Origin: Candidatus Nitronauta litoralis
GTDB lineage: Bacteria; Nitrospinota; Nitrospinia; Nitrospinales; Nitrospinaceae
DNA: 64,000 bases
Direction of reading: 5' to 3'
Assembly (NCBI GenBank): GCA_015698285.1
Contig: CP048685.1
Location: 2,170,001 to 2,234,000 of the forward strand
The position numbers and the translations under genes were made by a program. Of the stretch, positions 4,710 through 52,153 are shown in pieces (position 1 is the stretch's first letter; every line of letters starts with the position of its first letter). A model generated the notes under the pieces. It was given only the letters and a program-made list of their open reading frames with translations. It ran no database searches and was not told the origin of the DNA.

Positions 4710-6233
4710 TTAGGAAAAAAAGTCCTGAATTGCAGCGACCACATATTCCTGTTGTTGTGGAGTTACTTCAAAAGAATTGGGTAGAGCCAGGGTTTCCGCT
4801 GCGGCTTTTTCAGAAACCTTGAAATCACCTGTCTTGTAGCCTAAGTCCCGGAAACATTCCTGTTCATGCAGGGAAAGCGGATAATACACTTCGCAACCAA
4901 TTCCGTTTTTCTGAAAATGCTGGCGCAGCGCATCGCGTTTTCCATCCGCCACCCGAAGGACAAACTGATTGTAAATATGGCGAGTCATGACCTCTTGCGG
5001 GGTCTGAATGTGATCATCCAGCTTGGCGTCAGAAATGAGTTTGCGATAACGGTCGGCATTGTCCTGCCGCTTTTGGGTCCATTTATCGAGGTACGGCAGC
5101 TTTGCCGCGACCACAGCCGCTTGCAGGGTGTCGAGACGAAAGTTCCCGCCAACCCATTTGTGGTAATACTTCGGATGCGAGCCGTGAACGCGGAGGATCT
5201 TGAGCCGCTCGAAAAGATCTTCCGAGTTGGTGGTGACGAGTCCACCATCTCCCATTCCTCCTAGATTTTTTGTCGGGAAAAAGGAAAAGCAACCCATATC
5301 CCCGAGTGACCCTGCCCGCTGATCTTTGTATTCAGAACCGATCGCCTGTGCGGCATCTTCAATGACAACCAGATTGTTTTCTTTTGCAATGGAGTTAATA
5401 GCCTCCATCTCTGCACACTGTCCATAAAGATGAACGGGAATGATGGCTTTTGTTTTTTCATTAACGGCTGCGGGAATCAGGCTTGGATCAAGGTTGAAGG
5501 TCACCGGGTCGATATCAACGAATACCGGTTTTGCTCCAACGCGGACAATGGAACCTACCGTTGCAAAGAATGTGAAAGGGGAGGTGATGACCTCATCACC
5601 CGGGCCGACATTGGCTGTCATCAGAGCGATCACCAGTGCATCGGTTCCGGAAGATACCCCCACTGCAAAACGCGACTGACAATACTCGGCAATCTTGTCT
5701 TCAAGGTCCTTGACTTGGGGGCCGAGTATGAATTTACCGGAGCGAATGACTTCATACATTTCCCGTTCAGCATCGTTCAACCATTCGTGATAGGAGCCCG
5801 GGATGTCGAGCAGCGCGACACTTTTTAAAGGGGCGGCTGGTTGTTCCAGACGGATTTTAAGTTCGGCCGGGGTGAGTGCCAGAACTTCCAGCGTCTTAAA
5901 TGATTCAGTGTCCAGGGTCAGTACCAAATCAAGATTGAGTCGATGCAAGGTTTTTGCGGAAAGAGATTCTGAAAACCCGCCACGGTTGTCCGAAAGAGAA
6001 TCTGCGATTTCCGGGTTTGATATTGGAGTCAGGGAGAAGCGGGACAGTATCGTTGCCAACCGTTCCCGGGCCGTTTTGTCATCCAGGGATTTTTGAATTT
6101 GCCTGGAGGCATCGGGGACACAGGCACCAAGTACCCAGGCCTGGATCCCATCGCGGCAAAGTAATTGAAGAAGGTCGTCGTTAGGATTTACTGCCAGGTC
6201 GACGATGACATCGGTATGAATTAACAGTTTCAA
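4710..6233 (-). CDS. PIN-like domain fused to a DegT/DnrJ/EryC1/StrS sugar aminotransferase
   Basis: The C-terminal part (about 150-507) is a complete PLP-dependent sugar aminotransferase: VSSGTDALVIALM, VIEDAAQAIGSEYKDQRAGS, and CFSFFPTKNLGGMGDGG with the Schiff-base lysine at residue 322. It probably transaminates a nucleotide-linked keto sugar such as the product of the next gene, rfbB. The first 150 or so residues are not part of this family. They begin MKLLIHTDVIVDLAV, contain LNLDLVLTLDTESFKTL and then LALTPAEL, a layout like single-domain PIN proteins (early Asp, late acidic Leu-Thr-x-Asp region, closing 'LTP-E/A-E' strand). The usual DegT length is about 370-400, so the excess is a real extra domain with no stop or frameshift. 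The PIN assignment is from pattern only; nuclease activity is not implied. Confidence 0.85.
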   Translation of the reverse strand: MKLLIHTDVIVDLAVNPNDDLLQLLCRDGIQAWVLGACVPDASRQIQKSLDDKTARERLATILSRFSLTPISNPEIADSLSDNRGGFSESLSAKTLHRLNLDLVLTLDTESFKTLEVLALTPAELKIRLEQPAAPLKSVALLDIPGSYHEWLNDAEREMYEVIRSGKFILGPQVKDLEDKIAEYCQSRFAVGVSSGTDALVIALMTANVGPGDEVITSPFTFFATVGSIVRVGAKPVFVDIDPVTFNLDPSLIPAAVNEKTKAIIPVHLYGQCAEMEAINSIAKENNLVVIEDAAQAIGSEYKDQRAGSLGDMGCFSFFPTKNLGGMGDGGLVTTNSEDLFERLKILRVHGSHPKYYHKWVGGNFRLDTLQAAVVAAKLPYLDKWTQKRQDNADRYRKLISDAKLDDHIQTPQEVMTRHIYNQFVLRVADGKRDALRQHFQKNGIGCEVYYPLSLHEQECFRDLGYKTGDFKVSEKAAAETLALPNSFEVTPQQQEYVVAAIQDFFS

Positions 6234-9893: not shown

Positions 9894-11540
9894 TTGAAAT
9901 TTGCACTGGCACAGGTCAATCCGACCATCGGTGATCTCGAAGGGAACGTTGAAAAAATCCGTGAGGCCATAGAAAAGGCTGCAGAAGGGCAGGCCGATTG
10001 TGTTCTGTTTCCCGAGATGGCGGTGTCGGGTTACCCTTGCCGGGATTTACTGGACAAGCCGGAGTTCATCCAAACGCATTCCCGGGTAGTCCAACAGTTG
10101 ATTCAGCAGACTCGTGGGCCGGCAGTTCTTCTCGGACATTTTGATGAAAGCCAGAGTGAAACCGGCAAGCGACTGGTCAATTGTGCGACCCTGTTTCAGG
10201 ATGGCAGGGTGCTGGCACGCCACGAAAAAATATTATTGCCTGCTTACGATGTGTTTGATGAGCTGCGTTATTTTCAATCCGGCGATGCGCCTGTGGTCGC
10301 CACATTGAATGGGATGAGAATCGGAATCACCATTTGTGAGGATATCTGGAATGTTCCCGGGTTTTACGATCGCGATTGCTACACACGTCAACCGGTAACA
10401 GAACTGGTGGAATCAGGCATTGATTGCCTGGTAAACCTGTCGGCTTCTCCCTACCGTCTGGGGCGTGGTGCGAGACGCCAGGAGCTTGGCCGCGCTATTG
10501 TCAAAGAAACAGGGGTCCCGTTACTTCTGGTCAATCAGGTTGGTGGCAACGACGATTTATTATTTGACGGTCACAGTTATGTATTGGATGCCGATGGAAA
10601 AGTGTTGGCCCAGTCTCCCGGGTTCCAAGAAGATCTGTTAGTAGTTGACCTGAATCAACCCCCACAGGAATTGACACCCTGGACCGAGAATACGGAAGAA
10701 GAAATGTTCATGGCGCTGACCCTTGGAGTGCGCGATTACCTGAACAAATGCGGGTACAAACGTGCCGTGATAGGTCTTTCCGGTGGGATCGATTCTTCCG
10801 TCGTTGCAGTACTCGCTGCCGAGGCTCTCGGTGCAGAAAACGTGACCGGAATCAGTATGCCTTCCAGTTACACAGCGACCGCAAGTAAAGAGGATGCGGA
10901 AGCACTGGCACGTTCTTTGGCAATAAGGTTTGAGACGATTCCAATTCTCCCCCTGTTTGAACAGTATAAGGAAACCCTCAGGCCGCTGTTTGGTGAGGGA
11001 CCAGAAGATGTGACCGAGGAAAATATTCAAGCAAGAATTCGCGGCAATCTACTCATGGCGGTGTCCAATAAATGGGGAAGCATGGTGCTCTCAACCGGAA
11101 ATAAAAGTGAAATGTCGGTTGGATACTGCACTTTATATGGAGATATGGCCGGCGGCCTTTCTGTGCTGTCCGATGTACTCAAAACCCGTGTCTATCAACT
11201 GGCGCGATGGATCAATCGAAATGGAGAGGTGATTCCCCAACGCGTTATAGATCGGCCTCCAACAGCCGAACTGAGACCGGATCAAACCGATCAGGACAGC
11301 CTGCCACCCTACGAAACGCTGGACGCGATTCTTGAGAGTTATATCGAGCGGCATCTGAGTCTAGAGGAGATTGTCGCGCAGGGGCATGACTCGAAACTGG
11401 TGAGCGAGATCACGTCCAAGGTGGACAATAACGAGTACAAGCGCAATCAGGCGGCTCCGGGACTAAAAGTAACAGGCAAAGCCTTTGGCAGTGGCCGCCG
11501 AATCCCCATTGCCCAGCGGTTCAGGAAAAAAAGTTCTTAA
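9894..11540 (+). CDS. nadE: Glutamine-dependent NAD+ synthetase
   Basis: The protein amidates deamido-NAD to NAD with ammonia drawn from glutamine. The N-terminal nitrilase-fold glutaminase (about 1-260) has the Glu-Lys-Cys triad in VLFPEMAVSGYP, RHEKILLPAYDVFDE and GITICEDIW. The C-terminal synthetase (about 270-548) has the ATP-pyrophosphatase loop IGLSGGIDSSVVAVLA and TGNKSEMSVGYCTLYGDMAGG. The start is a TTG at 9894, with GAGG just upstream and MKFALAQVNP as the natural N-terminus. The 548-residue length is usual for the two-domain form. It sits 8 bases behind a glycosyltransferase, so it may be co-transcribed with it; there is no functional link beyond that. Confidence 0.95.
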   Translation: MKFALAQVNPTIGDLEGNVEKIREAIEKAAEGQADCVLFPEMAVSGYPCRDLLDKPEFIQTHSRVVQQLIQQTRGPAVLLGHFDESQSETGKRLVNCATLFQDGRVLARHEKILLPAYDVFDELRYFQSGDAPVVATLNGMRIGITICEDIWNVPGFYDRDCYTRQPVTELVESGIDCLVNLSASPYRLGRGARRQELGRAIVKETGVPLLLVNQVGGNDDLLFDGHSYVLDADGKVLAQSPGFQEDLLVVDLNQPPQELTPWTENTEEEMFMALTLGVRDYLNKCGYKRAVIGLSGGIDSSVVAVLAAEALGAENVTGISMPSSYTATASKEDAEALARSLAIRFETIPILPLFEQYKETLRPLFGEGPEDVTEENIQARIRGNLLMAVSNKWGSMVLSTGNKSEMSVGYCTLYGDMAGGLSVLSDVLKTRVYQLARWINRNGEVIPQRVIDRPPTAELRPDQTDQDSLPPYETLDAILESYIERHLSLEEIVAQGHDSKLVSEITSKVDNNEYKRNQAAPGLKVTGKAFGSGRRIPIAQRFRKKSS

Positions 11541-11568: not shown

Positions 11569-13644
11569 TTATTCGGACTCTATCTCGGTCAGCAGTGCCT
11601 CTGCTTCAAGTGTCAGTGCAGGATCTAAATGAAGCGCCAATGCCTCGCGTATGTGTTTTTCCGCTTTCGCTCTATTGTCATGTTCCCAAAACAGTTTTCC
11701 GAGAAAGTATTGCCGTGGTCCATTTGTGGGGTCAAAAGTTAAGGACCGCTCAAGTGCTCCAATGGCCTGTTTCCACTGCTCATGGTTCAAGTGAATTCGG
11801 GCAATGGAGGCTTCTATCCTGGCTGAAAGATGTTTTTCTTTTATTTTTGTTCGGATCGACTGGTACCAGTCCAATGCCTCCTGGGACTTTCCGCCTTCTT
11901 CAAGTATTTCACCCAGTAGCAACTGGCCATCGATATGGTTTGGCTTTTCCTTGAGGAATCTCCGGGCTTCTTTTTCTGCCCTGTCGTACCTTTTCAGATT
12001 GAGCAGTACCCGTCCCTGATACAGCGCAATTTTTGGAGGAAGGAGATGTTTCTGCGGATGATATTTTTTTGCCGCCCGTGCCCGATTGAAAGAGAGGTGG
12101 GCTTCTTTGTCCATTCCCCGGGTTGCAAACAGAACACCGAGGTTGAAATGGCCTGAAGGCAGACGAGGATAGATCTGGACGGCTTGAACAAATTCCCGTT
12201 CGGCATTCGCCATGTCACCCCACAAAGCGTAGATATTGCCAAGGTTGGTGTGGGCATAGGAGCGGTAATAGGGAGTGGCGTTTGATGCAGCAAGTTTTTT
12301 CAACATGATGAAGGCGTTGTCGAAATCTTTTCTTTCTGTGTAGAAATGACTGAGGTTGTGATAAATACGGGGCTTACCCGGATTTTTTTTCAGTGCGTCT
12401 TCCCAGAGGGAAATATTTGATTCGTAAACGGCGTTGCGGTGTATCAGCAAAGTCATGAAACAAACCACAACGATGGCTGCGCAAACGGTGACCAGCAGAC
12501 GCGCAATTTTGCTGCTACGGGCACCAAATCCAACACACTCTGCAGTAGCAGCACCAATCAGAAGTAATCCGAAAGACGCAAGGTATAGATTGCGCTCGCT
12601 CAGCAAATCCATTCTTGGAAGAAAACTGTTTGTTGGTGAAAGAATCAATAAGAACCAACCGACTCCAAACGCTGCCAGTGGAAAGGCACGATAAAGTTTC
12701 AGCCAGATTCCTGAAAAAATACCAACGGCTAACAGGGAGCTGAAGATACGGAGGGTGTCGGTTGAAAGGCTTGAATAAGGCCAGTCATAGTCGAACACCT
12801 GGTTGATGGGAAACAGGACCATTTTTGCGCCAAATGGAATTACCGTCAGTTGTTGAAGGGCATAACCCGGATTGATTTTTTGTGACCAGGTAACCACATG
12901 TTCCCACATGGACGGGGATAGGAAAAATAGACAGGAGATTGAAAGGAGTACAGGCCCGTACACCCAGAGGATGCGAGGTTTAAAGGTGCGAAAATTTTTG
13001 TTTCGCATGAAACAAACATCGTAAAGCAGTAGTGCTGCAGGGAGGGTGATGGCGGTTTCCTTGGACAAAATAGCAGATGCGCCGGCAAGAAAACACAGGC
13101 TGTAGCAGAACACTCGACCTTTCCATGAGATTTGTCGGGTTTCTGCCTGGATAAAACCCATCAGCGATAACAGGTAAAACATAGCCATTAGTGAACTGGT
13201 GCGTCCGGAGATGTAGGACACGGCTTCGGTCTGGATCGGGTTGAATGCAAACACCAGGGCGGTGAGTGTGGCTATGCGCATCGCGGAACTACGACCCCAG
13301 TCGCAACCTTTTTCTACCGTGATGCGAACCACGGCAAAGACCAGCAGGCTGTTGACCAGATGAACGCCAATGTTGAAGAGATGGTAACCAAATGGATCTT
13401 CCTGTCCCAGATGGTAGTTGAAAGCAAAGGTAAGGTAAAACAGGTGACGATAGTGAATTGTGTGGAGCTGGAAAAAAGTAGCCAGATTGAGGATTGCCCG
13501 ATTATTGAGGACCACCAATCCATCGTCAAAATTGAAAGGAGAATGCAGGACGGAGGAATAACCCAGAGCGACACCAAGACTGATGGCAGCCACAATAAAG
13601 ATAAAGACCAGACGATGCTGGTTGGGTGTGTTAATTGAGGGCAT
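11569..13644 (-). CDS. TMTC-like GT-C membrane glycosyltransferase with C-terminal TPR repeats (copy 2)
   Basis: The N-terminal half (about 12-400) has about ten membrane helices and the features of TMTC/DUF1736 proteins, the GT-C family that in animals O-mannosylates cadherins: an acidic pair in FNFDDG (Asp40-Asp41) on the first external loop, PIQTEAVSYISGRTSSLMA and LLSERNLYLASFG. The C-terminal half consists of TPR helices (for example AHTNLGNIYALWGDMANAER and GHFNLGVLFATRGMDKEAH). The start is set at the ATG at 13644, because a TTG at 13677 would lengthen the overlap with the upstream paralogue. The two genes overlap by 14 bases and are clear paralogues. A role in glycosylating exported proteins or glycans with a lipid-linked sugar is inferred; substrate unknown. 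Confidence 0.82.
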   Translation of the reverse strand: MPSINTPNQHRLVFIFIVAAISLGVALGYSSVLHSPFNFDDGLVVLNNRAILNLATFFQLHTIHYRHLFYLTFAFNYHLGQEDPFGYHLFNIGVHLVNSLLVFAVVRITVEKGCDWGRSSAMRIATLTALVFAFNPIQTEAVSYISGRTSSLMAMFYLLSLMGFIQAETRQISWKGRVFCYSLCFLAGASAILSKETAITLPAALLLYDVCFMRNKNFRTFKPRILWVYGPVLLSISCLFFLSPSMWEHVVTWSQKINPGYALQQLTVIPFGAKMVLFPINQVFDYDWPYSSLSTDTLRIFSSLLAVGIFSGIWLKLYRAFPLAAFGVGWFLLILSPTNSFLPRMDLLSERNLYLASFGLLLIGAATAECVGFGARSSKIARLLVTVCAAIVVVCFMTLLIHRNAVYESNISLWEDALKKNPGKPRIYHNLSHFYTERKDFDNAFIMLKKLAASNATPYYRSYAHTNLGNIYALWGDMANAEREFVQAVQIYPRLPSGHFNLGVLFATRGMDKEAHLSFNRARAAKKYHPQKHLLPPKIALYQGRVLLNLKRYDRAEKEARRFLKEKPNHIDGQLLLGEILEEGGKSQEALDWYQSIRTKIKEKHLSARIEASIARIHLNHEQWKQAIGALERSLTFDPTNGPRQYFLGKLFWEHDNRAKAEKHIREALALHLDPALTLEAEALLTEIESE

Positions 13645-15850
13645 ATTCCCCGGAGATTTGAGATAACAAAAGTTCAACCATCTTGATTTTATTTTGATCC
13701 GATGTGCTTTTTAATATGGTTTCAAGATGGTGACGTGCGAGATTTTTATCGCCTCCATGCTCAAGAATAAGTTTGGCCAGGTTAAAGCGTGCCGCCAGGT
13801 TTGAAGGCGATAATTGCAGGGTTTTTTTGAGTTCTGTTTGTGCTTCTGCGATCCTGTTTTGCTGGATATGAACCATTGAAGTTTTAAACAGGGCTTCAGC
13901 TTTTATTAGTTTTGGGGTCGTAACGAGTTGCCAGTGTGCAATAGCCTTGTCCGGGTGTCCCTGAGCCATCTCAATATCGCCAAGCAACAAATATCCTTCA
14001 CTATTTTTGGATCCAGTTTTTAAGAATTGTCTCACCTCTCGTTTGGCCTCTTCGAATTGTCTCTGGCTGAAAAAAATCCGGGAATGTGTGAGATGCCATC
14101 GAGGCACCAGGTCAGGAGACAGGTCCATTTTATCCTTTGCCCGTTCCATTTCATTGAAAGCCTGCTCCGTTTCTCCCCTTCGGAGAAAAAGTGCGGCCAG
14201 GTCAAGATGTGCATGAGGCAGGTGCGGGCGGGCCGTTAAGGCTTTTCTGAACTCGACCTCCGCAGGTTGCAACCTGCCCTTGTTGGCCAATTGTGCTCCC
14301 ATAAAAAGCCTGGTGAAATATAAAGGGGCAGAGTTTCGATACAACCCGGCCAGTTCCCGGTAAACCTGCCCGTACATTTTGAACTGACCCGGGTCCGATT
14401 GCACGACCTGTTTCAGGTTTTCCAGCAGCTTCAGGTAGCTTTCCAGTTGTTTTTGTGATTCCTCAACGGAGGCAGTGATTTTTTTTGCAAGGGATGGATC
14501 TTTCTTTGACAAACGCGTAATTTCAAGCCGTGAAGCGGCAGGGTCTCCGGCCAGATAATGTGCCATGGCCAGATAGTAATGCACTTCACTTTTGTTAGGC
14601 GATTTCGTAAGGGTATCCTGCCACAGGGTGATGTCATTTAGATAAACCCTGTTTCGCTGGTAGGTTAATAATCCATAACAAAGACACACAATGGCCAGGG
14701 CAGACGCTACAACTGGAACCAGACGAAAAGAGGATTTTTTTTCTAAAAGACTATTGAACAGCATGCCCCACCACCAGCAAAATCCGATCGAAGGCAGGTA
14801 CAGATTTCTTTCACTCAGTAAATCCATGCGAGGCAAAATGCTGTTGGTGGGTGAGAGAATGATCAGAAACCAGAACACGGCGAAGGTGAAAACCGGAGGG
14901 CTTTGTTTTCGAAATTTCCAGGCGGCAAAAAGTATCAACGCCCAGAAAAGGATCGCCAGGTTTTTAAAGAATCCACTCAGAAAAGTGTTTCGGGGAAAAT
15001 CGTAATCGAAGGTCAGGTTAACGGGCAGGAACATTAATTTGAATGCGTAAGTCAACACCGGCAATTGATCAAGTATCAGGTTCCATTGGATACGGTTTAA
15101 CCAGATTGACACCTGGGTTGAAAAGGTTGGAGAGATCAAAATAATTATTACGGAGCCTGCGGCCAGAGGTCCGTATAAAAATTTCCACCTGTTTGACCGT
15201 GGCATCCAGTAATTGTTTTGCATGAAGCAAAAATCGAATAACAGGAGGCCGAGGGGCAGGGTCAGGCAGGTTTCTTTGGTTAAAAGGGCTCCCATTCCTG
15301 TCAGGAACACCATGAATATCGCGAGAACCTTTTTTACATAGCGATTACTTTTTAATTGTGAAGTCGCAAAAAAGTACAGTGCGGAAATATAAAGCAAGGA
15401 CGACATTCCACTGCTGCGACCGGAAATATAAGTTACCGTTTCGGTATGAACCGGGTGCAGGGCGAACAAGGCTCCTGAAATTAAGGCAACCCTGTAAGAT
15501 TTTTGCGCAGTCCAACCGGACCCTTCCTTGAGGGTCAATCGGATCAGGGCTATCAACATACAGGTTGTCAGTAAATGGAGAGCCAGGTTGACTGCGTGGT
15601 ACCCAAACGGATCAAGCCCTCCCTGGGCAAAATTCAGCGCATAGGAAGTGGTCAGCCATTGCCGATAGTGAGGAGGAAAACGCCAGAATAACCCGGGTTG
15701 TTCTATCTCAGAATGGTATTGAATGGAGGAGTAATCGTCGGAGTGAAATGAACCTTCAAAACTGTTTTGATAGACGAAACCTGCTGCCAATAAAAAAAAC
15801 AGAAGGGTGAACCAGTTACGAATATGAAGAGATCCCGGATCGTTGTTCAT
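13631..15850 (-). CDS. TMTC-like GT-C membrane glycosyltransferase with C-terminal TPR repeats (copy 1)
   Basis: This 739-residue protein is the paralogue of the next gene. The first helix is followed by GSFHSDDYSSI with the acidic pair Asp38-Asp39. HPVHTETVTYISGRSSGMSSL and MDLLSERNLYLPSIGFCWWW match the conserved TMTC/DUF1736 blocks very closely. About ten hydrophobic segments reach to residue 410, and TPR-type helices fill the rest (LPHAHLDLAALFLRRGETEQ, SEGYLLLGDIEMAQGHPDKA, LAARFNLAKLILEHGG). It starts five bases after the WecA-like gene ends (transcription order), so lipid-linked sugar synthesis and these transferases are probably one operon. Catalysis is expected at the periplasmic face using a polyprenyl-phosphate sugar, by analogy with the GT-C class; not shown here. 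Confidence 0.83.
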   Translation of the reverse strand: MNNDPGSLHIRNWFTLLFFLLAAGFVYQNSFEGSFHSDDYSSIQYHSEIEQPGLFWRFPPHYRQWLTTSYALNFAQGGLDPFGYHAVNLALHLLTTCMLIALIRLTLKEGSGWTAQKSYRVALISGALFALHPVHTETVTYISGRSSGMSSLLYISALYFFATSQLKSNRYVKKVLAIFMVFLTGMGALLTKETCLTLPLGLLLFDFCFMQNNYWMPRSNRWKFLYGPLAAGSVIIILISPTFSTQVSIWLNRIQWNLILDQLPVLTYAFKLMFLPVNLTFDYDFPRNTFLSGFFKNLAILFWALILFAAWKFRKQSPPVFTFAVFWFLIILSPTNSILPRMDLLSERNLYLPSIGFCWWWGMLFNSLLEKKSSFRLVPVVASALAIVCLCYGLLTYQRNRVYLNDITLWQDTLTKSPNKSEVHYYLAMAHYLAGDPAASRLEITRLSKKDPSLAKKITASVEESQKQLESYLKLLENLKQVVQSDPGQFKMYGQVYRELAGLYRNSAPLYFTRLFMGAQLANKGRLQPAEVEFRKALTARPHLPHAHLDLAALFLRRGETEQAFNEMERAKDKMDLSPDLVPRWHLTHSRIFFSQRQFEEAKREVRQFLKTGSKNSEGYLLLGDIEMAQGHPDKAIAHWQLVTTPKLIKAEALFKTSMVHIQQNRIAEAQTELKKTLQLSPSNLAARFNLAKLILEHGGDKNLARHHLETILKSTSDQNKIKMVELLLSQISGEYALN

Positions 15851-15854
15851 GGGG

Positions 15855-16925
15855 TCACGATTTCAGGTCCCGCTCCTTGCGGCGCAGCCAGGTGATCAGA
15901 AAAACCAGGTGGACGACGATGAATATAAAGAAAATCGGAGTGAACTTGGGGATCAGGTTGATGTTGAAGGCCGGAATCAATGACCAGAGATCGAAATAGA
16001 ACGCAATACCGAGCAATATGAAAATGGTTTTGGTGGGTGTTTGTCCCAACCGTTCAAGTCGATGGTGGAAATGTTCTGCATCCCGGCTGAAAGGACTGAT
16101 CCCTTTGCTTACCCGGCGCACAAAGGCCCAGATCGTGTCTGTAATGGGAACCAGTAACGTTACCACAGGAATGAGGTAGTAAATTTCATCGGTGAACCCT
16201 TGTGCCAGTGGGAGTAAAGTTACAAGTGAAATAATCAGCCCCAATGGCAGGCTTCCTGTGTCTCCCAGAATTATTTTTGCTGGCGGATAGTTGAATAGAA
16301 GAAAGCCGAAGACACTTCCGGATAGAATCACAGATAAAAATGAAGGACCAAAAATTTTTCGTTCCAGATAAACCAGGGTTAAGGTAAGGCAGGAAAGAAA
16401 AATCAGGCCGCCGGCAAGACCATCTTTACCGTCAATCAGGTTGAGGGAGTTGGAAATCCCCACGATCCACAGAACGGTTACCACAGGCGACAACGGTCCC
16501 AATTCCCACCAGTCCCCAATACGGTCAATCCTGAATCCGAAATAGTACAAACCAATGGCGATGGCGATCTGCGCTACGAGTTTTGTCCAGGGTCGTGCAA
16601 CCACGAGATCATCGTATATTCCGAGGAGAAACATGAGGGCACCGCCGAGGGTGATCCCCAGGAATAATGTGTTGTAATCCGGGTGGAGGCTGAGCAGATA
16701 GGGGGCTGTCCAAAGAGTGAAAAAAAATGAAACCATCACCGCTACACCCCCAAATGAAACCACCCCGGGCTTGCCAGTATTAACCTGGGTGTGGATCAAT
16801 TTGGCCAGACGGCTATCCCCTTTCAAAAACACAATAGTGGTGTAGGCAATTCCCCCTGACAATACCAGAGTCAATAGATACGCAGCGAGGAAGGTAGGAC
16901 CTGAAATAGGGTGGTTGGCAATCAT
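15855..16925 (-). CDS. Polyprenyl-phosphate sugar-1-phosphate transferase (WecA/TagO-like, GT4)
   Basis: WecA-type enzymes load an amino-sugar phosphate from a UDP-sugar onto undecaprenyl phosphate, starting O-antigen or related glycans. The 356-residue protein has about ten membrane helices and all the family blocks: GIYDDLVVARPWTKL, GISNSLNLIDGKDGLAGG (Asn-Asp motif), PPAKIILGDTGSLPLGLII, and the cytoplasmic loop GISPFSRDAEHFHHRLERLG with the HxHH signature. Family length fits (about 340-370). It lies between a GT2 gene upstream (30 bases) and the two TMTC-like genes downstream (5 bases). This suggests that its lipid product feeds the nearby glycosyltransferases. MraY is a relative but lacks this exact HFHHR form. 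Confidence 0.9.
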   Translation of the reverse strand: MIANHPISGPTFLAAYLLTLVLSGGIAYTTIVFLKGDSRLAKLIHTQVNTGKPGVVSFGGVAVMVSFFFTLWTAPYLLSLHPDYNTLFLGITLGGALMFLLGIYDDLVVARPWTKLVAQIAIAIGLYYFGFRIDRIGDWWELGPLSPVVTVLWIVGISNSLNLIDGKDGLAGGLIFLSCLTLTLVYLERKIFGPSFLSVILSGSVFGFLLFNYPPAKIILGDTGSLPLGLIISLVTLLPLAQGFTDEIYYLIPVVTLLVPITDTIWAFVRRVSKGISPFSRDAEHFHHRLERLGQTPTKTIFILLGIAFYFDLWSLIPAFNINLIPKFTPIFFIFIVVHLVFLITWLRRKERDLKS

Positions 16926-16955: not shown

Positions 16956-17804
16956 TCAGCGAAAAAAATTCAACATAAGTTGAAGGCCGCATCGCAAGGT
17001 GATCATTCCGTCAAGAATTGTGCGGGTTAAAATGTTTCCTTTTATGTGTTTGCGGTGGTAATGGCTCATGCCTTGATGTCGTTTAATAATTGAATTGATC
17101 GAGGCGCGCTGGTTCATTGAAGAGATGTGAGTGATCGATGTTTCAGGATGGTAGACAACCTCGAATCCATTTGCCCAGATGGTTTTGCACAAATCGACAT
17201 CCTCGATAAAAAGAAAAAACTTTTCATCAAACATCCCGGCTTTGTTAAACACGTCGTTCTTTACCATCAGACAGCAGCCTGAGATCCAATCAACAGTTTG
17301 CGTTGCATTATGGTCCATATAAGACATCAGGTAATGTCGGCTGTATTTATTATTGGGAAACAATCGAGTGAAGAGTGAATAACGATTGAAAAGCCCCGAC
17401 CAGATAGTAGGGAAACGCCTGCAGGAGAATTGGAGAGTTCCATCCTGGTTTAAAACTTTTGGACCTGCAGCACCTGCATTCGGATGGTCGTCCAGATAAC
17501 AGGAAAGGCTGGCTGTGGTTTGCGGGTCCAGAGTCGCATCCGGGTTAACGAAAAACAGATGCCGACCCGTGGCCAACTTTGCAGCCTGGTTGCAGGCACG
17601 GCCAAATCCGATATTCTCCTCATTTCGAATCAAATTAATTTCCGGAAATGTTTCACGGACAATCGGGATGCCGGAATCGACATCGCTGTTGTCGATCACC
17701 AGGATCTCTTTTTCCCCGGAGAATTCTGATGCACGAATGGACTCCAGGCAGCGCAATAGTTTGCGACTGCTACGATAATTGACGATAATATAAGAAAGGT
17801 CCAC
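16956..17804 (-). CDS. Glycosyltransferase family 2 (rhamnosyltransferase-like)
   Basis: A 282-residue GT-A transferase beginning MDLSYIIVNYRSSRKLLRCL. EILVIDNSDVDSG and NIGFGRACNQAAKLATG are the nucleotide-binding parts, and FFVNPDATLDPQTTASL holds the donor/metal Asp. FFLFIEDVDLCKTIWANGFE is the conserved ED motif of the WcaA/WbbL group, and a hydrophobic C-terminal tail (LDGMITLRCGLQLMLNFF) suggests membrane association. It is the first gene of the minus-strand row that continues with the WecA-like transferase and the TMTC-like pair, so it may add the second sugar to the lipid-linked primer. The exact sugar is unknown. Confidence 0.86.
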   Translation of the reverse strand: MDLSYIIVNYRSSRKLLRCLESIRASEFSGEKEILVIDNSDVDSGIPIVRETFPEINLIRNEENIGFGRACNQAAKLATGRHLFFVNPDATLDPQTTASLSCYLDDHPNAGAAGPKVLNQDGTLQFSCRRFPTIWSGLFNRYSLFTRLFPNNKYSRHYLMSYMDHNATQTVDWISGCCLMVKNDVFNKAGMFDEKFFLFIEDVDLCKTIWANGFEVVYHPETSITHISSMNQRASINSIIKRHQGMSHYHRKHIKGNILTRTILDGMITLRCGLQLMLNFFR

Positions 17805-18516: not shown

Positions 18517-19800
18517 ATGCTCTGGATGAGAAAATTTAACTGTTTATATACTGCAGCTTTTGCTTTGTGGGCTCTGACTGGACTCCTGACAACAACGGGT
18601 TTTGCGGCGGATGCTGTCAAACTTGATGCCATGATCCGTGCGGCGGATGATGCCCTTGGGAAAAAAGAGTTGGAAAAAGCCCGTAAACTTTATTCAGAAA
18701 TTCTGGAGAAAGACCCCAAAAACTGGCGGGTGATGTTTGCTCTTGCTGGAATCTATTTTGATACCAAGCAGTACCAGGCGTCTCAGAATCTGGTGAATAA
18801 AATTCTGGCGATGCCGGTTGCAAACGGTCGCAATGTTAAAGTTTTTTATCCTGACTCAGCTGAAGGTGAACCGGCGGAACTGGTAGATGAAATCGTTTTG
18901 CCGCCCCAGCGTACAAAAAACAACATGCGCAATTATCTTGATGTAAAAGGCAACGCGCCCATTCCCCATTACCGACTGTTCTTTAAAAATACCGACAAGA
19001 TGGAACTGGTACCCCAAAGCGTGGTTCGCATAGAATACGATGGGGTTTTAAGAAGGGCCTACGAGGAAGTCCAGGAGTTTTCACTAAAAGTTGATCGTGC
19101 GCTTGTTGCAAAGGGTGGGACAAGTGGAACGACTGAAGTTGTCAAGATCAAGGGAGGGTGTTTCCAGATGGGCAACAAGGAAGGCACTCCCCTGGAAAAA
19201 CCCGTCCATGAGGTTTGCCTTAATGATTTTGACATGGATAAATATGAGGTCACCCAGGCCCAATATCAAGCTGTGATGGATGACAACCCTTCACAAGTGA
19301 TTGGCGCAGACAGACCGGTTGAGCATTTGACCTGGTTTGAGGCGGATCGTTATTGCGCCAATGTGGGTCGCCGTCTGCCCACTGAAGCTGAATGGGAATA
19401 TGCCGCTCGTGGTAACACCACGACCAATTTTTACTGGGGTGATACGGTGAAAGGCAAGGAAGCTAACTTTTGCGATAAAAACTGTACGCTCAATATTCGT
19501 GTTGCCAGTATTGACGATGGGTACGAGACAACTGCACCGGTAGGCAAATTCCCGCCTAACCCATTAGGGTTGCACGATATGGCGGGCAATGTGGCTGAAT
19601 GGGTGAGTGACTGGTGGGATCCGAATTATTACCGATACAGTCCAAAGGATAATCCGAAAGGACCCCGCCCGCTGGATCACAAAATTATTCGCGGGGGTGG
19701 CTGGCACAATACAGCCGGTTTTATTCGGACATCAAACCGCACCGGTTTCTGGCCCAACTTCAGGAGTGATGGACTCGGTTTCCGCTGTGTCTCCAAATAG
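18517..19800 (+). CDS. Exported TPR + formylglycine-generating-enzyme-like (SUMF1-fold) protein
   Basis: An N-terminal signal peptide (about 1-31, ending TTTGFAADA) is followed by a TPR-like pair of helices (DDALGKKELEKARKLYSEIL, NWRVMFALAGIYFDTKQYQ). From about residue 207 comes an FGE-sulfatase domain: KGGCFQMGNKEGTPLEKPVH, DKYEVTQAQYQAVM, RRLPTEAEWEYAARG, GLHDMAGNVAEWVSDWW and the closing DGLGFRCVSK. The catalytic cysteine pair of true FGEs, expected between RGGGWHN and the end, is absent (the stretch reads HNTAGFIRTSNRTGFW). It is therefore more likely a binding or structural member than an enzyme that oxidises sulfatase cysteines. Periplasmic or surface location is inferred. GGGGGA lies four bases before the chosen ATG; a second ATG at 18526 is possible. 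No sulfatase gene is nearby. Confidence 0.85.
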   Translation: MLWMRKFNCLYTAAFALWALTGLLTTTGFAADAVKLDAMIRAADDALGKKELEKARKLYSEILEKDPKNWRVMFALAGIYFDTKQYQASQNLVNKILAMPVANGRNVKVFYPDSAEGEPAELVDEIVLPPQRTKNNMRNYLDVKGNAPIPHYRLFFKNTDKMELVPQSVVRIEYDGVLRRAYEEVQEFSLKVDRALVAKGGTSGTTEVVKIKGGCFQMGNKEGTPLEKPVHEVCLNDFDMDKYEVTQAQYQAVMDDNPSQVIGADRPVEHLTWFEADRYCANVGRRLPTEAEWEYAARGNTTTNFYWGDTVKGKEANFCDKNCTLNIRVASIDDGYETTAPVGKFPPNPLGLHDMAGNVAEWVSDWWDPNYYRYSPKDNPKGPRPLDHKIIRGGGWHNTAGFIRTSNRTGFWPNFRSDGLGFRCVSK

Positions 19801-46458: not shown

Positions 46459-47124
46459 TTGGTTGTCAACACGACTTCAGGCGCAATAATCCAGGAACTA
46501 AGCTATGATGAATGGGGAAATATATTGAGTGATACTAATTCTGGCTTTCAACCCTTCGGTTTTGCTGGTGGGCTGTATGATCCTGATACAAAACTGGTCC
46601 GTCATGGTGCACGCGATTATGACCCTGCAATTGGACGCTGGACAAGTAAAGACCCCATTCGTTTGACAGGAAACGATCCTAATTTTTACAACTATGTCGT
46701 CAATGATCCCATCAATTTGATTGATCCTACTGGACTTATTACTTATAAATGCACTAAGCCGTTAGACGCTTTAACAAATAAATTTGGAATTGGCATCAGT
46801 CAGTGGGCCCACGATGAGGTTGTGTACGCTTATCATCAATATTCCTGTATTGTCAATTCTGATGGAGTTCAATGTGGTGGACAAGATCATGAGGGAAGCC
46901 CCGTAAGAAGTGATGGAAAAGCAAGTGATGATCAACTTAGATTTCCAGGTTGTCAAATTTCCGAAGAAAACAACGAATGTTTTGAATCTTGTCTGATTGA
47001 AGAGTGGGCGAAACCTCGCCCGAAATATGGCATACCTTTTGGGCAAGATTGCCAAGAATACGATGATGCAGTAAATGAAAGATGCAGCTTAAAATGTATT
47101 TTGAAAAATCGACCTGGGCTTTGA
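46459..47124 (+). CDS. Displaced RHS tip 1: RHS core end plus Cys-rich toxin-like C-terminus
   Basis: This is only the 3' end of an RHS gene. The reading frame is open from 46408 and homology begins abruptly at [15 protein letters not shown] (46432); a TTG at 46459 is the first possible start. The RHS-associated core is clear: [36 protein letters not shown] and the hinge [12 protein letters not shown], after which variable toxin sequence starts. The tip (about 125 residues) opens [10 protein letters not shown] and has nine cysteines and [18 protein letters not shown] and [19 protein letters not shown] believe similar Cys-rich tips occur on other RHS proteins, but the activity is unknown. No ribosome binding site and no upstream core: probably silent until recombined. 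A membrane protein follows after 6 bases. Confidence 0.75.
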
Positions 47125-47130
47125 TATCAA

Positions 47131-47505
47131 ATGAAATGGACTTTCAATATTCTTCGAACTATTTGGGTATTGGCCGCAGTGGTTATACTTTTGGTTTCAA
47201 TTGCGGGAATTGAAGATAGTCATACGGGAGCATTTTTTTCTTGGAGTATGATTCTCCTAGGGTTTCCAATAAATTATTTGTTATTTGGACTAGTAGGAAT
47301 TTTGATTGAAATTTTTGAGGAGGGTTTTTCTATTCCAGATCCTTTTTTGTATAACTCACATCCCTATTTTCACTACATTTTACTTTGGACCCTTTCATCA
47401 ATTGCAGGTTATTTGCAATGGTTCAAGTTAGTTCCATTTTTATACAAAAAGATTCGCCAATTAATAAACCAAAAATTCAGAAAAATTAAAGAAAACCCAT
47501 CTTAA
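47131..47505 (+). CDS. Probable immunity protein 1 (multi-helix membrane protein)
   Basis: A 124-residue protein with three or four hydrophobic segments: IWVLAAVVILLVSIAGI, FFSWSMILLGFPINYLLFGLVGILIEIF and YILLWTLSSIAGYL, ending in a basic tail (KIRQLINQKFRKIKENP). It begins 6 bases after toxin-tip 1. In all four modules of this array a small gene follows the RHS tip at this spacing, which is the usual place of an immunity gene. A membrane immunity protein suggests that the toxin acts at or crosses the inner membrane. No family recognised; the role is inferred from position. Its stop is immediately followed by repeat copy 1. Confidence 0.6.
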   Translation: MKWTFNILRTIWVLAAVVILLVSIAGIEDSHTGAFFSWSMILLGFPINYLLFGLVGILIEIFEEGFSIPDPFLYNSHPYFHYILLWTLSSIAGYLQWFKLVPFLYKKIRQLINQKFRKIKENPS

Positions 47506-47590
47506 TGTACAAGTATCGTAATTGGCTAACAGAGGCCCTTGTTGGGTTTGGGATTTAGGCGGCTATTTTAGCCGTCTTTTTTTATTTTTG
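47506..47590 (+). repeat. RHS inter-module repeat, copy 1 (with terminator)
   Basis: The repeat starts TGTACAAG directly after the stop of immunity gene 1. It runs through a conserved GGCCCTTGTTGGGT block to GGCGGCTATTTTAGCCGTC followed by seven T, a rho-independent terminator. The same about 80-base unit recurs at 49307 and 53391, with substitutions in the first half and an almost unchanged terminator half. It ends module 1 and probably stops transcription there. Confidence 0.88.
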
Positions 47591-47640
47591 TGATTCTTTT
47601 TGTGAAATTTAATATTTTTTGAGTCAGTCGCCCGTCTGGT

Positions 47641-48819
47641 GTGGACCGTCTGAACAACGGTGCGGTTTATGATGTGCAGGACCGGCTGACGGCAAACTCC
47701 ACCGCCACATACACCTACAACGACAACGGTGAGCTTGCAACGAAGGTCGATGCGTCCGGCACCACGACCTACACCTACGATGTGCTGGGCAACCTCCGGC
47801 AGGTCGACCCGCCTTTAACAAACGATGTAATCGACTACATCATCGACGGTAGCAATCGGAGGATCGCGAAGAAGGTCAACGGGACTATCACAAAGAAGTG
47901 GCTGTATGGCGACCCGCTCAACCCGATTGCGGAACTCGACTTAAACGACAACATCACCAAGCGGTTCATTTACGGCACCCGTTCCAATGTGCCGGACGTT
48001 ATGGTGGATGTGTCGGGGGCAAACCCGGTCGTCTACCGCATCATCTCGGATCATCTTGGAAGTCCGCGTTTCGTTATCGACATCAGCAACGGAACCACCG
48101 CGCTTGAGCTGAGTTACGACGAATGGGGTGTCGAGACCATCGTTAGCGGCAACCGTGACCTCATCCCGTTCGGTTTTGCAGGAGGTCTCTACGACAAAGA
48201 CACCAAGCTAGTTCGTTTCGGTGCTCGCGATTATGACCCGGAGATTGGACGCTGGACCTCCAAAGACCCGATCGAATTCGAAGGCGGTGACACAAACCTC
48301 TTCGGCTACGTCCTCAACGACCCCGTCAACTATATTGATCCTACCGGCAACTGCCCATGGTGCGTCAAAATCGGGATTGAAATTTTAATCGAAATTGCCA
48401 TTCAAATGACCCAAAATGGAGGTAAAATTGAGTGCATTGATTGGGAAGCCGTAGGTAAGGCTGCCGTTGGGGCGGTTTTACCCCCTGGTGTTGCCAGAGC
48501 AGGGAATGGAAGTAAGTTTTTACCTAAAGGAGGTACTTATAAATTAAAAACTCCTGATGGTGGTGTAAAAAGAACAGGACGATCTAAGGATCTTGAGCGA
48601 CGTAAAAAAGAGCACAAAAGGGATCCTCAAACAAAGGACCTTGAGTTTGAAGTTGACAAAAGAACTGATTCTTATGATGCCCAACGTGGTCGAGAACAAA
48701 TTGTTCATGATCAGCACCCGGAAGCGCGAGTGGAAAATGGGGGTTTAAATAAGAAGAACCCTATTGGTGACAGGAATCGCAATCGCAAAAAGTATATGGA
48801 TTCTGGAGGGAAACTTTAG
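47641..48819 (+). CDS. Displaced RHS tip 2 with GIY-YIG-like nuclease C-terminus
   Basis: This is the longest tip: RHS repeats (YDVQDRLTANSTATYTYNDN, DVLGNLRQVDPPLTNDVIDY) and core ([40 protein letters not shown]) end at the hinge NDPVNYIDPTGN. The frame opens after a TGA at 47620, so the 5' part is missing; the GTG at 47641 is only the first possible start. A linker (CPWCVKIGIEILIEIAIQMT) precedes the toxin domain, which reads GTYKLKTPDGGVKRTGRSKD, LERRKKEHKRD, RGREQIVHDQ and GGLNKKNPIGDRN. This matches the order of a GIY-YIG endonuclease (Tyr, Gly-Arg-Thr, Arg-Arg-x-x-x-His, Glu, Asn). A nuclease toxin is inferred. An Imm26-like gene abuts the stop. Confidence 0.8.
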   Translation: MDRLNNGAVYDVQDRLTANSTATYTYNDNGELATKVDASGTTTYTYDVLGNLRQVDPPLTNDVIDYIIDGSNRRIAKKVNGTITKKWLYGDPLNPIAELDLNDNITKRFIYGTRSNVPDVMVDVSGANPVVYRIISDHLGSPRFVIDISNGTTALELSYDEWGVETIVSGNRDLIPFGFAGGLYDKDTKLVRFGARDYDPEIGRWTSKDPIEFEGGDTNLFGYVLNDPVNYIDPTGNCPWCVKIGIEILIEIAIQMTQNGGKIECIDWEAVGKAAVGAVLPPGVARAGNGSKFLPKGGTYKLKTPDGGVKRTGRSKDLERRKKEHKRDPQTKDLEFEVDKRTDSYDAQRGREQIVHDQHPEARVENGGLNKKNPIGDRNRNRKKYMDSGGKL

Positions 48820-49293
48820 ATGCCTAAGAAAACTTTGAACTATTCTGAAGGAGATTGTTTTTCTGTACCTCTATCAGAAGGGGGGTATGCGCGTGGAGTT
48901 GTAGCCAGGATGGATGGAAGTGGTGGTATTTTTGGTTATTTTTTTGGCCCTAAAGTTGAACAATTTAAAAAATTAGTTATCGACGAAAACATATTTCCTG
49001 AAAATGCGGTTCTTTTAGGTCAATTTGGTGATTTAGGTTTTTTAGAGAAAAAATGGGAGGTAATAGGTAGAGTTTCTGAGTGGTCTAGGGAAAAGTGGCC
49101 AATGCCATTGTTTTTAAGGTTTGAGGAGGGTAGTTCAGTTGGTTATTTGAGCCAATATGATGAAAACACTCTAAAAATTATTGGTGAACAAGAAGTAGAA
49201 ATTAAAAAAATTGATAAAAAAAAATATCCTAAAGATTCCCTTATGGGTTACGGTTTTGTAGAAAAAAAAATTGAGATGATTTTATCCTCATAA
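48820..49293 (+). CDS. Imm26-family immunity protein (immunity 2)
   Basis: The ATG follows the toxin stop with no gap. The 157-residue protein starts NYSEGDCFSVPLSEGGYARG and continues VVARMDGSGGIFGYFFGPKV. This is the Imm26 pattern ('G-D-x-F-x-I-P-L-x-D-G-x-Y-A-x-G-x-V'), a family of immunity proteins found behind polymorphic toxin genes. It is soluble and fairly acidic and should bind and neutralise the nuclease tip encoded just before it. Base composition is much more AT-rich than the RHS core, as usual for exchangeable toxin/immunity DNA. Confidence 0.78.
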   Translation: MPKKTLNYSEGDCFSVPLSEGGYARGVVARMDGSGGIFGYFFGPKVEQFKKLVIDENIFPENAVLLGQFGDLGFLEKKWEVIGRVSEWSREKWPMPLFLRFEEGSSVGYLSQYDENTLKIIGEQEVEIKKIDKKKYPKDSLMGYGFVEKKIEMILSS

Positions 49294-49306
49294 ATTAAAA
49301 AAAGGG

Positions 49307-49400
49307 TGTACAAGAATCGTAATTAGCTAACATTGGCCCTTGTTAGATGTTGGAATTAGGCGGCTATTTTAGCCGTCTTTTTTGTTTTTTCCTCTGTATT
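49307..49400 (+). repeat. RHS inter-module repeat, copy 2 (with terminator)
   Basis: Starts TGTACAAG 13 bases after the Imm26 stop and shares with copy 1 the segments ATCGTAATT, GCTAACA, GGCCCTTGTT and the hairpin AGGCGGCTATTTTAGCCGTC plus T-run. The following CTGTATTTT...TCTGG part (to 49412) is also found after copy 3. RHS tip 3 begins at about 49418. Confidence 0.88.
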
Positions 49401-50137
49401 TTTTTTCTGGCTTTTATGTCTACCGCATTATTTCGGATCATTTAGGAAGTCCGCGTTTTGTCATCGATATCAGTAATGGAACCACCGCGCTTGAGCTGAG
49501 TTACGACGAATGGGGTGTCGAGACCATCGTTAGCGGCAACCGTGACCTCATCCCGTTCGGTTTTGCAGGAGGTCTCTACGACAAAGACACCAAGCTAGTT
49601 CGTTTCGGTGCTCGCGATTATGACCCGGAGATTGGACGCTGGACCAGCAAAGACCCGATCGAGTTCGAAGGCGGCGACACTAACCTCTTTGGATACGTCG
49701 ATAGTGTCGGAAAACCCCTGGTTGAGACAAACCTGTATGGGTACACGCCCCAAGACCCCGTAAACTTTATCGATTTAAATGGTTTATGGTACATAGATGT
49801 TGGTGCATCAGGGTCTGCTACTGGTACTACAGGTCCTGGGGGAACTGTTTCAATTCAAATAGGGCCCAAAGGGATATTTTTTACTTATGGGTTTGGATTA
49901 GGAATCGGAAAAGGAGTGTCAGCAACCATTAATACAGGTGATCCTTGTGAAGGAATTGGTTTGGGTATAATTGCAAGAGGTGGTTTTCCTGTTAGAGGCG
50001 TTCCCGTTGGTGCTCAAGGATCGGTGACTGTTGATGATAAAGGGAAATTAAATCTTGGAGCTGGAGCTGGAGTGGGCTTGGGATTCGGTGTATCGATTGG
50101 AGCAACTCAAACTATTAAAATTATTGATTTTGATTAA
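49382..50137 (+). CDS. Displaced RHS tip 3 with Gly-rich C-terminus
   Basis: RHS homology begins at [13 protein letters not shown] (about 49418), nearly the same place as in tip 1; the upstream in-frame codons (TTG at 49382) come from the repeat. The core from 49478 to 49645 is base-for-base identical to tip 2. The hinge is unusual: after DTNLFGY the frame runs [19 protein letters not shown] then [11 protein letters not shown], so two hinge segments follow each other. The variable tip (about 120 residues) is Gly-rich with alternating hydrophobic residues ([38 protein letters not shown]), more like a beta-structured or pore-type domain than an enzyme. The partner gene starts one base before the end of the stop codon. 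Confidence 0.72.
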
Positions 50138-50370
50138 TGGAAACAATAAATAGCATAATATTTATTCTTTTGGGTCTGATTGGATTATTCAAGAGGAAGA
50201 GAATTTCTTCTGCCGTCTTGTCTCACCACTTAAATATTTGGGGGAAAGAGGCTTTTAATAAAAAGACTAATTATCGTAACTTCTTATTAGCTCAGACTAT
50301 TATGGTGATTATTGGAGGGGCTTTTATTATGGGTGGCCTATATCTTTTTTTTCGAGACGCGATAGAATAG
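50137..50370 (+). CDS. Probable immunity protein 3 (77-residue membrane protein)
   Basis: The ATG overlaps the stop of RHS tip 3 (TAATG), so translation is coupled. Two hydrophobic helices (NSIIFILLGLIGLF and FLLAQTIMVIIGGAFIMGGLYLFF) flank a short basic loop (RKRISSAVLSHHLNIWGKEA). No family recognised. Position as the gene directly behind a toxin-like tip, together with small size and membrane nature, suggests immunity against a membrane-active tip. It ends 66 bases before the IS1182 transposase; that gap contains the insertion boundary. Confidence 0.58.
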   Translation: METINSIIFILLGLIGLFKRKRISSAVLSHHLNIWGKEAFNKKTNYRNFLLAQTIMVIIGGAFIMGGLYLFFRDAIE

Positions 50371-50435
50371 CTTTGCAACCTAAGTTTTAAAAGTCGTTTT
50401 AGAAGTTCCCTTCCCCCTCTTTCCCTGGAGGTTTT

Positions 50436-52043
50436 ATGTTGAAGCCTTCTGCCTCTTCCCCGCATTCCGGTCAGGGCAGTTTTTTTGATCCGGAGTATGT
50501 GTGTGACCGGATTATTCCTGAAGACAGTTTCTACCGGCGGTTCAAAGAGAAGATCAATCCGCTCATCAAGGATAAGATGTTCGCTTCGATGTATTGTCTG
50601 GACAACGGTCGTCCGCCGATCTCCCCGGCCTTGCTGGCAAAGGCCACCATCCTCCAGTTTCACCGGAATCTTTCGGACCGCGAGATGGAGCGTGCCTGTG
50701 CGTTCGATATCGAGATCAAGTTTGCATTAGGGTTACGGCTGGACGAACGCCCGTTCGATCACTCTTCTCTCGGCGACTTCAGAAAACGCCTTTTAGAACA
50801 TGAGAAGGAGAAGGAAGTCTTCGACAAACTCCTCGATAAACTGGTCAAGGAGGGATTGATCGGCCGGAATGAAATCCAGCGCATCGATGCGACGCACGTG
50901 ATCGCGGATATCGCGCTTCCCACCATGACGGTGCTGGTGAAGAAGGGGGTGCGGAACGTGCTGATCCCGCTGAAGAAGAAACATCCGAAACTATACCAAT
51001 CACTTGGCAAAAAGATCACGGTGGAGGAGTACGATCACCGCAAGGTGGACCATGAAGTGGATGGTCGTCTGGATTTTGCGGCCAAGGAGAAGAAACTGGT
51101 GGAGGTGGTGACTGATGCCCGGACAGTGCTTCGCAAGGCCGAGTCCGTTAAAGGTGACAAGAACCTTTCGAAATCCGTCGAAATGCTGAAACGTATATTG
51201 AGGGAACACATCACCGAAGATGAGAACAACCAGCCTAAAGAGAAAGTGCGCAAGGAGAAGCCCGCCGACTTGCTGGTGTCACCGGTCGATCCCGATGCAC
51301 GCTTCGGCGCGAAGTCGAAGACGAAGAAGTTCCACGGTTACAAGGCCAATATCACCGAGACCGTCAACAGCCGCTTCATCACCAGTGTGCAGGCAACACC
51401 GGGAAACAAGCGCGACGGATCGGTGACGGTGCAGTCAATAGAAGAACAAAAGCCGCACCGTCTCAAGCCGGAGAAACTGATCGGCGACACGGCATACAGC
51501 GACGGAGGATATAGAAAAGCGCTCAAGGAACACGGCACGGAACTGGTCGCGCCCCTGCGGATCATGAACAACATCACGCGAGCCGTGTATCCGAAGTCGA
51601 TGTTCGATTATGACGCGAAGAAGAACACGCTGACGTGTCCTGCCGGTGTGACGATCAAGCAGAGTTTTCACGATTACCAGAAGGACGTACGGATGTTTCA
51701 CTTTCCCCTGACAAAGTGCGGCCCATGCGAGCACCTGTCAAAATGCACAAAAGCAAAAGAGAAACGGCGTGTGGTGGGGATCGGTCCTGCGCACCAGGAA
51801 CTGAGAGACGCGGAAGTTTATAACAAGACTGATCAGTTCAAGGAAGACATGAAACTCCGGCAGGCGATCGAGGGAAAACTGTCCGAGATGAAGCGGTATC
51901 ACGGGCTGACGCGGGCCAGGTATCGGGGACTAAACAAGATGAAGCTTCAATGTTACTTCACGGCGGTTGCGGTGAATATCAAACGATGGATCAAGTTGGA
52001 GATGGAGAAACTGAAAGTCCAGTCCGATCCCGCACCGACGTGA
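50436..52043 (+). mobile_element. IS1182-family transposase
   Basis: The 535-residue DDE transposase has the IS1182 layout: the N-terminal domain with FDPEYVCDRIIPEDSFYRRF, DNGRPPISPALLAKATILQF and DIEIKFALGLRLDERPFDHS; the catalytic Asp in IQRIDATHVIADI, the second in LIGDTAYSDGGYR and the Glu in the C-terminal IEGKLSEMKRYHGLTRARYR. A cysteine cluster (CGPCEHLSKC) sits before the last motif. The reading frame is intact and the base composition is GC-rich against its AT-rich surroundings, in line with recent arrival. GGAGG precedes the ATG by six bases. Terminal inverted repeats could not be identified; the element's outer limits lie within 50371-50435 and 52044-52225. Confidence 0.92.
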
Positions 52044-52153
52044 TCCCTATAATATAAAACTGGAGTCAGCTTATTAATATAAGAAGCAAACGAAGCAAAG
52101 GAGGTGAAACCGAGGGACTCAGGGAGAACAGGACAGGCCGAGGCTGAAATCAT

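Follow-up and report, generated by a model that had tools for sequence, protein, structure and literature searches.

Genomes of the phylum Nitrospinota contain a conserved cassette made up of a GT2 glycosyltransferase gene, a WecA-like gene and a gene for a TMTC-like membrane glycosyltransferase of a subfamily that we call W. The cassette was analysed here in the window, a stretch of 64,000 nucleotides from Candidatus Nitronauta litoralis, a Nitrospinota member related to marine nitrite-oxidising bacteria, with a genome of 3.92 Mb in one contig (G000). The genes form one unit, the TMTC-like products are homologous to DUF1736-positive proteins, their residues are conserved and WecA co-occurs exclusively with W; each of these points is directly supported by our analysis. 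The two W enzymes of the window, paralogues A and B, probably attach a sugar started by WecA to something outside the inner membrane, which is possibly protein. What is new is the conserved cassette together with an unrecognised family, and not a new kind of chemistry.

The gene unit and its two TMTC-like enzymes

Four minus-strand genes lie in one run. The first, most upstream gene (16956-17804) encodes a rhamnosyltransferase-like GT2 glycosyltransferase of 282 aa (PF00535, 2.3e-17), which had the TIGR01556 rhamnosyltransferase among its NCBIfam matches with a score below cut-off and in which a membrane part like that of DPM synthases was not apparent. After a gap of 30 bases follows the gene of a WecA/MraY-family polyprenyl-phosphate sugar-1-phosphate transferase (15855-16925, 356 aa) that matched PF00953 (3.8e-32) and ECA_wecA (3.7e-26, below the cut-off of that model). 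The DD, NLIDGKDGL, GDTGS and HFHH motifs read in its sequence are intact, and with PF00953, the catalytic aspartates and the HxHH loop the protein has the features of the PNPT family. Paralogue A (13631-15850, 739 aa) and paralogue B (11569-13644, 691 aa from its ATG) complete the unit. The original prediction of a TMTC-like pair beside a WecA-like gene was confirmed together with the positions of the open reading frames; the tight adjacency of WecA and A stands with a gap of 4 bases (15851-15854) rather than 5, and the unit described as three genes is extended by the GT2 gene, which had been left out. The B open reading frame (702 aa) opens at 13677 with TTG, and the ATG at 13644 is the more likely start; with this ATG, the first 14 bases of B lie within the 3' end of A. 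Downstream, the unit is flanked by a convergent gene for NAD synthase (9894-11540), and upstream by a divergent gene (18517-19800) for a protein with TPR and FGE-sulfatase domains; the latter keeps its place beside the cassette in most relatives and has the gene of an AMP-binding enzyme after it. Scans for promoters and terminators remained at chance level.

The homology of A and B extends from end to end (29% identity, E=2e-94); each joins a membrane glycosyltransferase domain of TMTC-like type, which in A spans roughly residues 1-410, to a C-terminal half rich in TPR matches. Besides these repeats, the only Pfam signal was PMT_2 in B, below threshold (E 0.004), and PF08409, the TMTC model (DUF1736, outer loop 4), gave no match at E<=1 in A, B and 12 W members. 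A PF08409 search of the window genome and 77 Nitrospinota genomes placed two distant proteins above cut-off, L114 and L115. For L114, hhalign gave an alignment with the family profile that covers the entire membrane domain (379 columns, E=3e-39), and BLASTP gave a match to B (1e-16). Since L114 passes PF08409 and aligns with both the family and B, we were able to show the homology of A and B to TMTC-like proteins, and their likeness to TMTC-type enzymes is no chance resemblance. The two proteins that pass the DUF1736 cut-off (L114:388-2502 in G069, L115:340-2586 in G068) look closer to animal TMTCs than A and B do.

Motifs were compared with M1-M7 of the TMTC enzymes as defined by Eisenhaber et al. 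2021 (PMC7801869, Table 4). Like TMTC1-4 (GT105, PF08409), A and B have the DD pair in the first outer loop (M1), KETxxT (M4, KE(T)xxT in the comparison with TMTC1-4), an acidic residue in outer loop 4 (M5, which B fits with DYDW, while A has D-F at the end of its DYDF) and ERxxY in outer loop 5 (M7). They differ in that M2 (SHKSYRP) is cut down to H-Y-R, M3 (RxD/E) has lost its acidic residue (R-T-S or R-S-S) and M6 gave no match as PxxP. Because of the changes in M2 and M3, the match to the TMTC motifs is good but partial. The positions are D38 D39, R145, K192 E193, DYDF 282 and SERNLY 346 in A, and D40 D41, R148, K195 E196, DYDW 285 and E350 R351 N352 Y354 in B (691 aa). The proposed kinship is thus supported for a TMTC-like, GT-C-type enzyme with intact catalytic residues, whereas close membership of the TMTC family proper is not supported, since PF08409 does not match and M3 lacks its acidic residue.

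Hydropathy and the positive-inside rule predict about 11 transmembrane segments with the N-terminus inside and the TPRs outside, an 11-TM topology with a long outward TPR tail as in TMTC1-4; with 13 lysines and arginines inside versus 8 outside, motifs and TPRs would both face outwards. The same outward arrangement of the motifs has been described for TMTC/POMT (PMC7801869, PMC6801728). In the AlphaFold2 model of B, the TPR half (residues 421-690) reached a pLDDT of mostly 80-94 and the membrane domain about 45, the latter because the input alignment held six sequences only. A fold search with the whole model returned TPR proteins only among the matches listed, a PDB sequence search gave no match, and hhalign of the family profile against one E. 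coli ArnT sequence (not an ArnT profile) gave no signal. Since the membrane domain has no confident model, the assignment to the GT-C fold rests on the homology to DUF1736 proteins and on the motifs. The W enzymes resemble ArnT/PMT (PF13231, PF02366) in the acidic outer loop 1, by analogy in the lysine of outer loop 3 and in the weak PMT_2 matches, whereas the TPR tail, the WecA association and the lack of a significant match to E. coli ArnT or a PDB chain set them apart.

Judged by their sequences, A and B fall into one subfamily, W, with E-R-N-x-Y as its diagnostic motif. Invariant in 35/35 W members are D51/D52, R77, R159, K206/E207, E361 R362 N363 and Y365 (numbering of the 702-aa B frame), which include arginines of loops 1 and 2 as well as the acidic residues in the first outer loop and the basic residue in outer loop 3 expected of GT-C/PMT enzymes. 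Beyond W, every member of the family keeps the first aspartate, the lysine and R159; where the position is aligned, D51 was found in 117/117 proteins and K206 in 119/119. All 37 W-type proteins, the A pair among them, have the E-R-N motif, which was absent from the other Nitrospinota proteins and the 29 Desulfobacterota-type proteins checked. Together with K-E, this motif is a feature of W that the A pair has kept; in the non-W groups the lysine is followed by L, Q or E, and E-H-R mostly takes the place of E-R-N. Comparison between species shows purifying selection on both paralogues, with dN/dS of about 0.12 and 0.08 at a nearly saturated dS. It had been named beforehand that a TMTC-like enzyme would be contradicted if most homologues had lost the acidic pair and other catalytic residues. 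No such loss was seen; these residues are kept, and this reading is therefore not refuted. The missing acidic residue of M3 and part of M2 might instead indicate a non-catalytic membrane domain that serves as a TPR-bearing membrane scaffold. Such a role is very improbable, given that no W member, duplicate A included, deviates in DD, KE, ERNxY or R148 and that selection is purifying.

The cassette across genomes and the wider family

GT2-WecA-W is a conserved Nitrospinota cassette. Of 23 neighbourhoods from several Nitrospinota families, 19 have WecA beside the W gene and 17 have GT2 there; three of the four neighbourhoods without WecA belong to a secondary W subclade in genomes with another W copy (G036, G043, G064). 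Close WecA orthologues (E<=1e-89) were found in 12/12 genomes with W and 0/15 genomes without it, counts that ignore kinship among 27 hand-picked, mutually related genomes. In all 12, WecA lies within about 250 bases of a W gene, while the 15 others have no WecA relative or distant ones only (E 1e-31 or weaker). All 12 also have a close GT2 orthologue, adjacent to WecA in 11 and about 2.6 kb away in the sole exception, G004. Since some near-complete genomes without W share their family and genus-level group with genomes that have it, joint gain or loss of WecA and W probably occurred more than once. No WecA neighbours were found for the non-W paralogue groups of Nitrospinota or in 20 neighbourhoods of TMTC-like genes from a second phylum (that of a Desulfobacterales MAG). 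The earlier interpretation is partly supported by these data, and its proposed link to a polyprenyl-PP-sugar transferase has become a stronger and more specific finding, with WecA always adjacent where it co-occurs with W. Many relatives also have genes for a 734-aa TPR protein and an epimerase near the cassette (L040:13868-16072), which are absent from this place in the window genome.

Paralogue B is the widely conserved orthologue of the pair, and A was found only in G000 and in its same-genus relative G011 (70% identity), being missing in G010 of the same genus. In the W tree, A joins the B orthologues of its genus, a placement with weak support (55/85). The simplest reading is that A is a recent, faster evolving tandem duplicate; alternatively, it might be an older copy that was lost elsewhere. 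A and B are 33% identical to each other in their membrane parts and 28% in their TPR parts, and the corresponding means across W are 43% and 40.5% (correlation 0.95). The TPR tail thus evolves under almost the same constraint as the catalytic part, which lends no support to client sets that change rapidly, and its conservation speaks, at the sequence level, for a fixed partner or a structural role just as much as for the choice of clients. Of the suggestion that the TPRs select clients, the outward position agrees with the topology prediction, and the conservation fits these other roles too. The further suggestion that the duplication created two client sets is not supported: the pair is confined to two of three genomes of the genus, and the TPR parts of A and B have diverged about as far as their membrane parts. 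Duplicate A has a narrow distribution.

Of 77 Nitrospinota genomes, 66 contain homologues of the family, and a single genome can give as many as 15 matches; in the second phylum, homologues were found at E<=1e-20 in 67 of the 148 genomes sampled. The window genome has five members. A tree of 119 proteins resolves the orthologous groups W (35 proteins including B, to which the A pair attaches), K1/K2/K3 and G4. The K groups form a tandem triple beside genes that resemble, by reading their sequences, a GAF protein, folD and xseA, and G4 adjoins a GT4 gene. The order K1-K3-K2 was seen at L062:1367-7316, L070:3973-9991 and about 15 other Nitrospinota loci, with gene ends mostly overlapping or touching and a context that gives no hint of function, and five TMTC-like genes stand in a row at L147:5806-15962 in G108 (second phylum), a genome with at least 12 matches. 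Tandem arrays, such as the three genes of the Nitrospinota K groups and the five of this Desulfobacterota genome, are usual in the family. These unnamed bacterial TPR proteins share with the W enzymes the architecture and a homologous membrane domain, and in them, too, Pfam sees the TPRs only: among 54 diverse members, the membrane domain was matched by PMT_2 in two and by the TMTC model in one. Unlike W, they have E-H-R, in many cases without the metal-type E of KE, and none was seen next to WecA. A role of the other paralogues in LPS synthesis was considered, since two of them adjoin KdtA/LpxK in G000, and was rejected because the conserved neighbours across genomes are the GAF-, folD- and xseA-like genes. 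At that locus (L036:11385-13967), two adjacent Kdo-transferase genes lie beside two TMTC-like genes near an LpxK gene, a neighbourhood of K-group genes not seen in the other genomes examined. Scans of viral contigs for homologues gave one doubtful match and a plasmid search gave none, and a literature search of incomplete coverage found no paper on bacterial TMTC-like enzymes.

Donor, acceptor and proposed function

The strict tie to WecA implies that W enzymes would work in a pathway begun on undecaprenyl pyrophosphate, and since the W family is kept beside a WecA gene and found only with it, A and B probably attach that lipid-linked sugar. Our preferred reading, held tentatively, is that A and B are inner-membrane GT-C-type transferases of a WecA-started pathway which use an undecaprenyl-linked glycan in the periplasm, an exported protein being the likelier acceptor. 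WecA would transfer a HexNAc-1-phosphate onto undecaprenyl phosphate, the sugar that GT2 adds next would probably be a deoxyhexose, for example rhamnose, and the product would be flipped across the membrane; flippase-family genes are present elsewhere in the window genome. At the periplasmic face, A and B would use the undecaprenyl-PP-linked glycan, with the D40 D41 pair, K195, R148 and E350-R351 (B numbering) as putative active site and the periplasmic TPR superhelix holding the acceptor or a partner. This acceptor may be an exported protein, in the way in which TMTCs and oligosaccharyltransferases work, with a surface polysaccharide close behind. At the level of genes, the logic resembles that of the PglB/PglL pathways with their WecA- or PglC-type start, namely an initiating transferase, a glycosyltransferase and a putative periplasmic transferase, whereas the W enzymes belong to another transferase family and are tied to such a pathway by their genetic coupling to WecA, so that a sequon or an en-bloc transfer would be hypothetical.

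WecA products are pyrophosphate-linked. The characterised 11-TM GT-C relatives with these motifs (PMT, ArnT, TMTC) use monophosphate donors (PMC7801869, PMC6801728), which counts against an undecaprenyl-PP-glycan as donor; the bacterial, WecA-coupled A and B would in this respect also differ from the TMTCs, to which Dol-P-Man is assigned as the donor of the mannose that they attach to Ser/Thr in cadherins. A and B might accordingly use a separate undecaprenyl-monophosphate sugar, with WecA making the acceptor lipid or acting in a parallel step, and indeed the other paralogue groups without WecA neighbours indicate that the architecture needs no WecA. We consider such a donor unlikely, since the cassette contains no polyprenyl-phosphate-sugar synthase and the strict coupling to WecA would then be harder to explain.

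As to the acceptor, the left flank of the unit is an O-antigen-type cluster with RmlA, RmlB, RmlD, ManC, a UDP-glucose dehydrogenase, a DegT aminotransferase, a GT9, a second GT2, a WbpM-like dehydratase and, at the window edge, a Wzy_C protein, and a glycan acceptor fits this flank equally well. It is quite possible that A and B modify surface polysaccharide or LPS, by adding side sugars to the O-antigen that WecA starts on undecaprenyl-PP or by moving it onto a periplasmic acceptor, in an ArnT- or Gtr-like manner, with the TPRs docking an assembly complex. The dTDP-rhamnose genes, ManC, UDP-glucose dehydrogenase, GT9, GT2 and Wzy_C genes of the flank favour this possibility, as do the neighbouring RmlB/RmlA/GT2 genes conserved together with the cassette and the fact that the window genome has only two PF00953 genes, the cassette WecA and a gene at 382352 that is presumably mraY. 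However, a normal O-antigen WecA should persist without W somewhere, which was the case in 0/27 genomes, and O-antigen modifiers are not known to have TPR tails. Within the window, the DegT aminotransferase (4710-6233) has an N-terminal extension of about 150 residues without Pfam match, and several RHS/YD-repeat-like ORF fragments with differing C-terminal ends and small ORFs between them were found at 46459-52786.

A broader proposal, which we regard as doubtful, is that GT2-WecA-W constitutes a general protein glycosylation system of Nitrospinota, with a TMTC-type TPR enzyme that uses a pyrophosphate-linked glycan made by WecA; it would be a third type of bacterial oligosaccharyltransferase besides PglB and PglL and a bacterial counterpart, by kinship, of the pathway of animal TMTCs. 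Because annotation sees only the TPRs, a very large family of bacterial proteins with TMTC architecture has gone unrecognised, and the W cassette offers a genetic handle on the donor through its strictly co-inherited initiating enzyme. If proteins are glycosylated by the W enzymes, this would reveal how bacteria carry out TPR-guided glycosylation and bear on the origin of the animal TMTCs.
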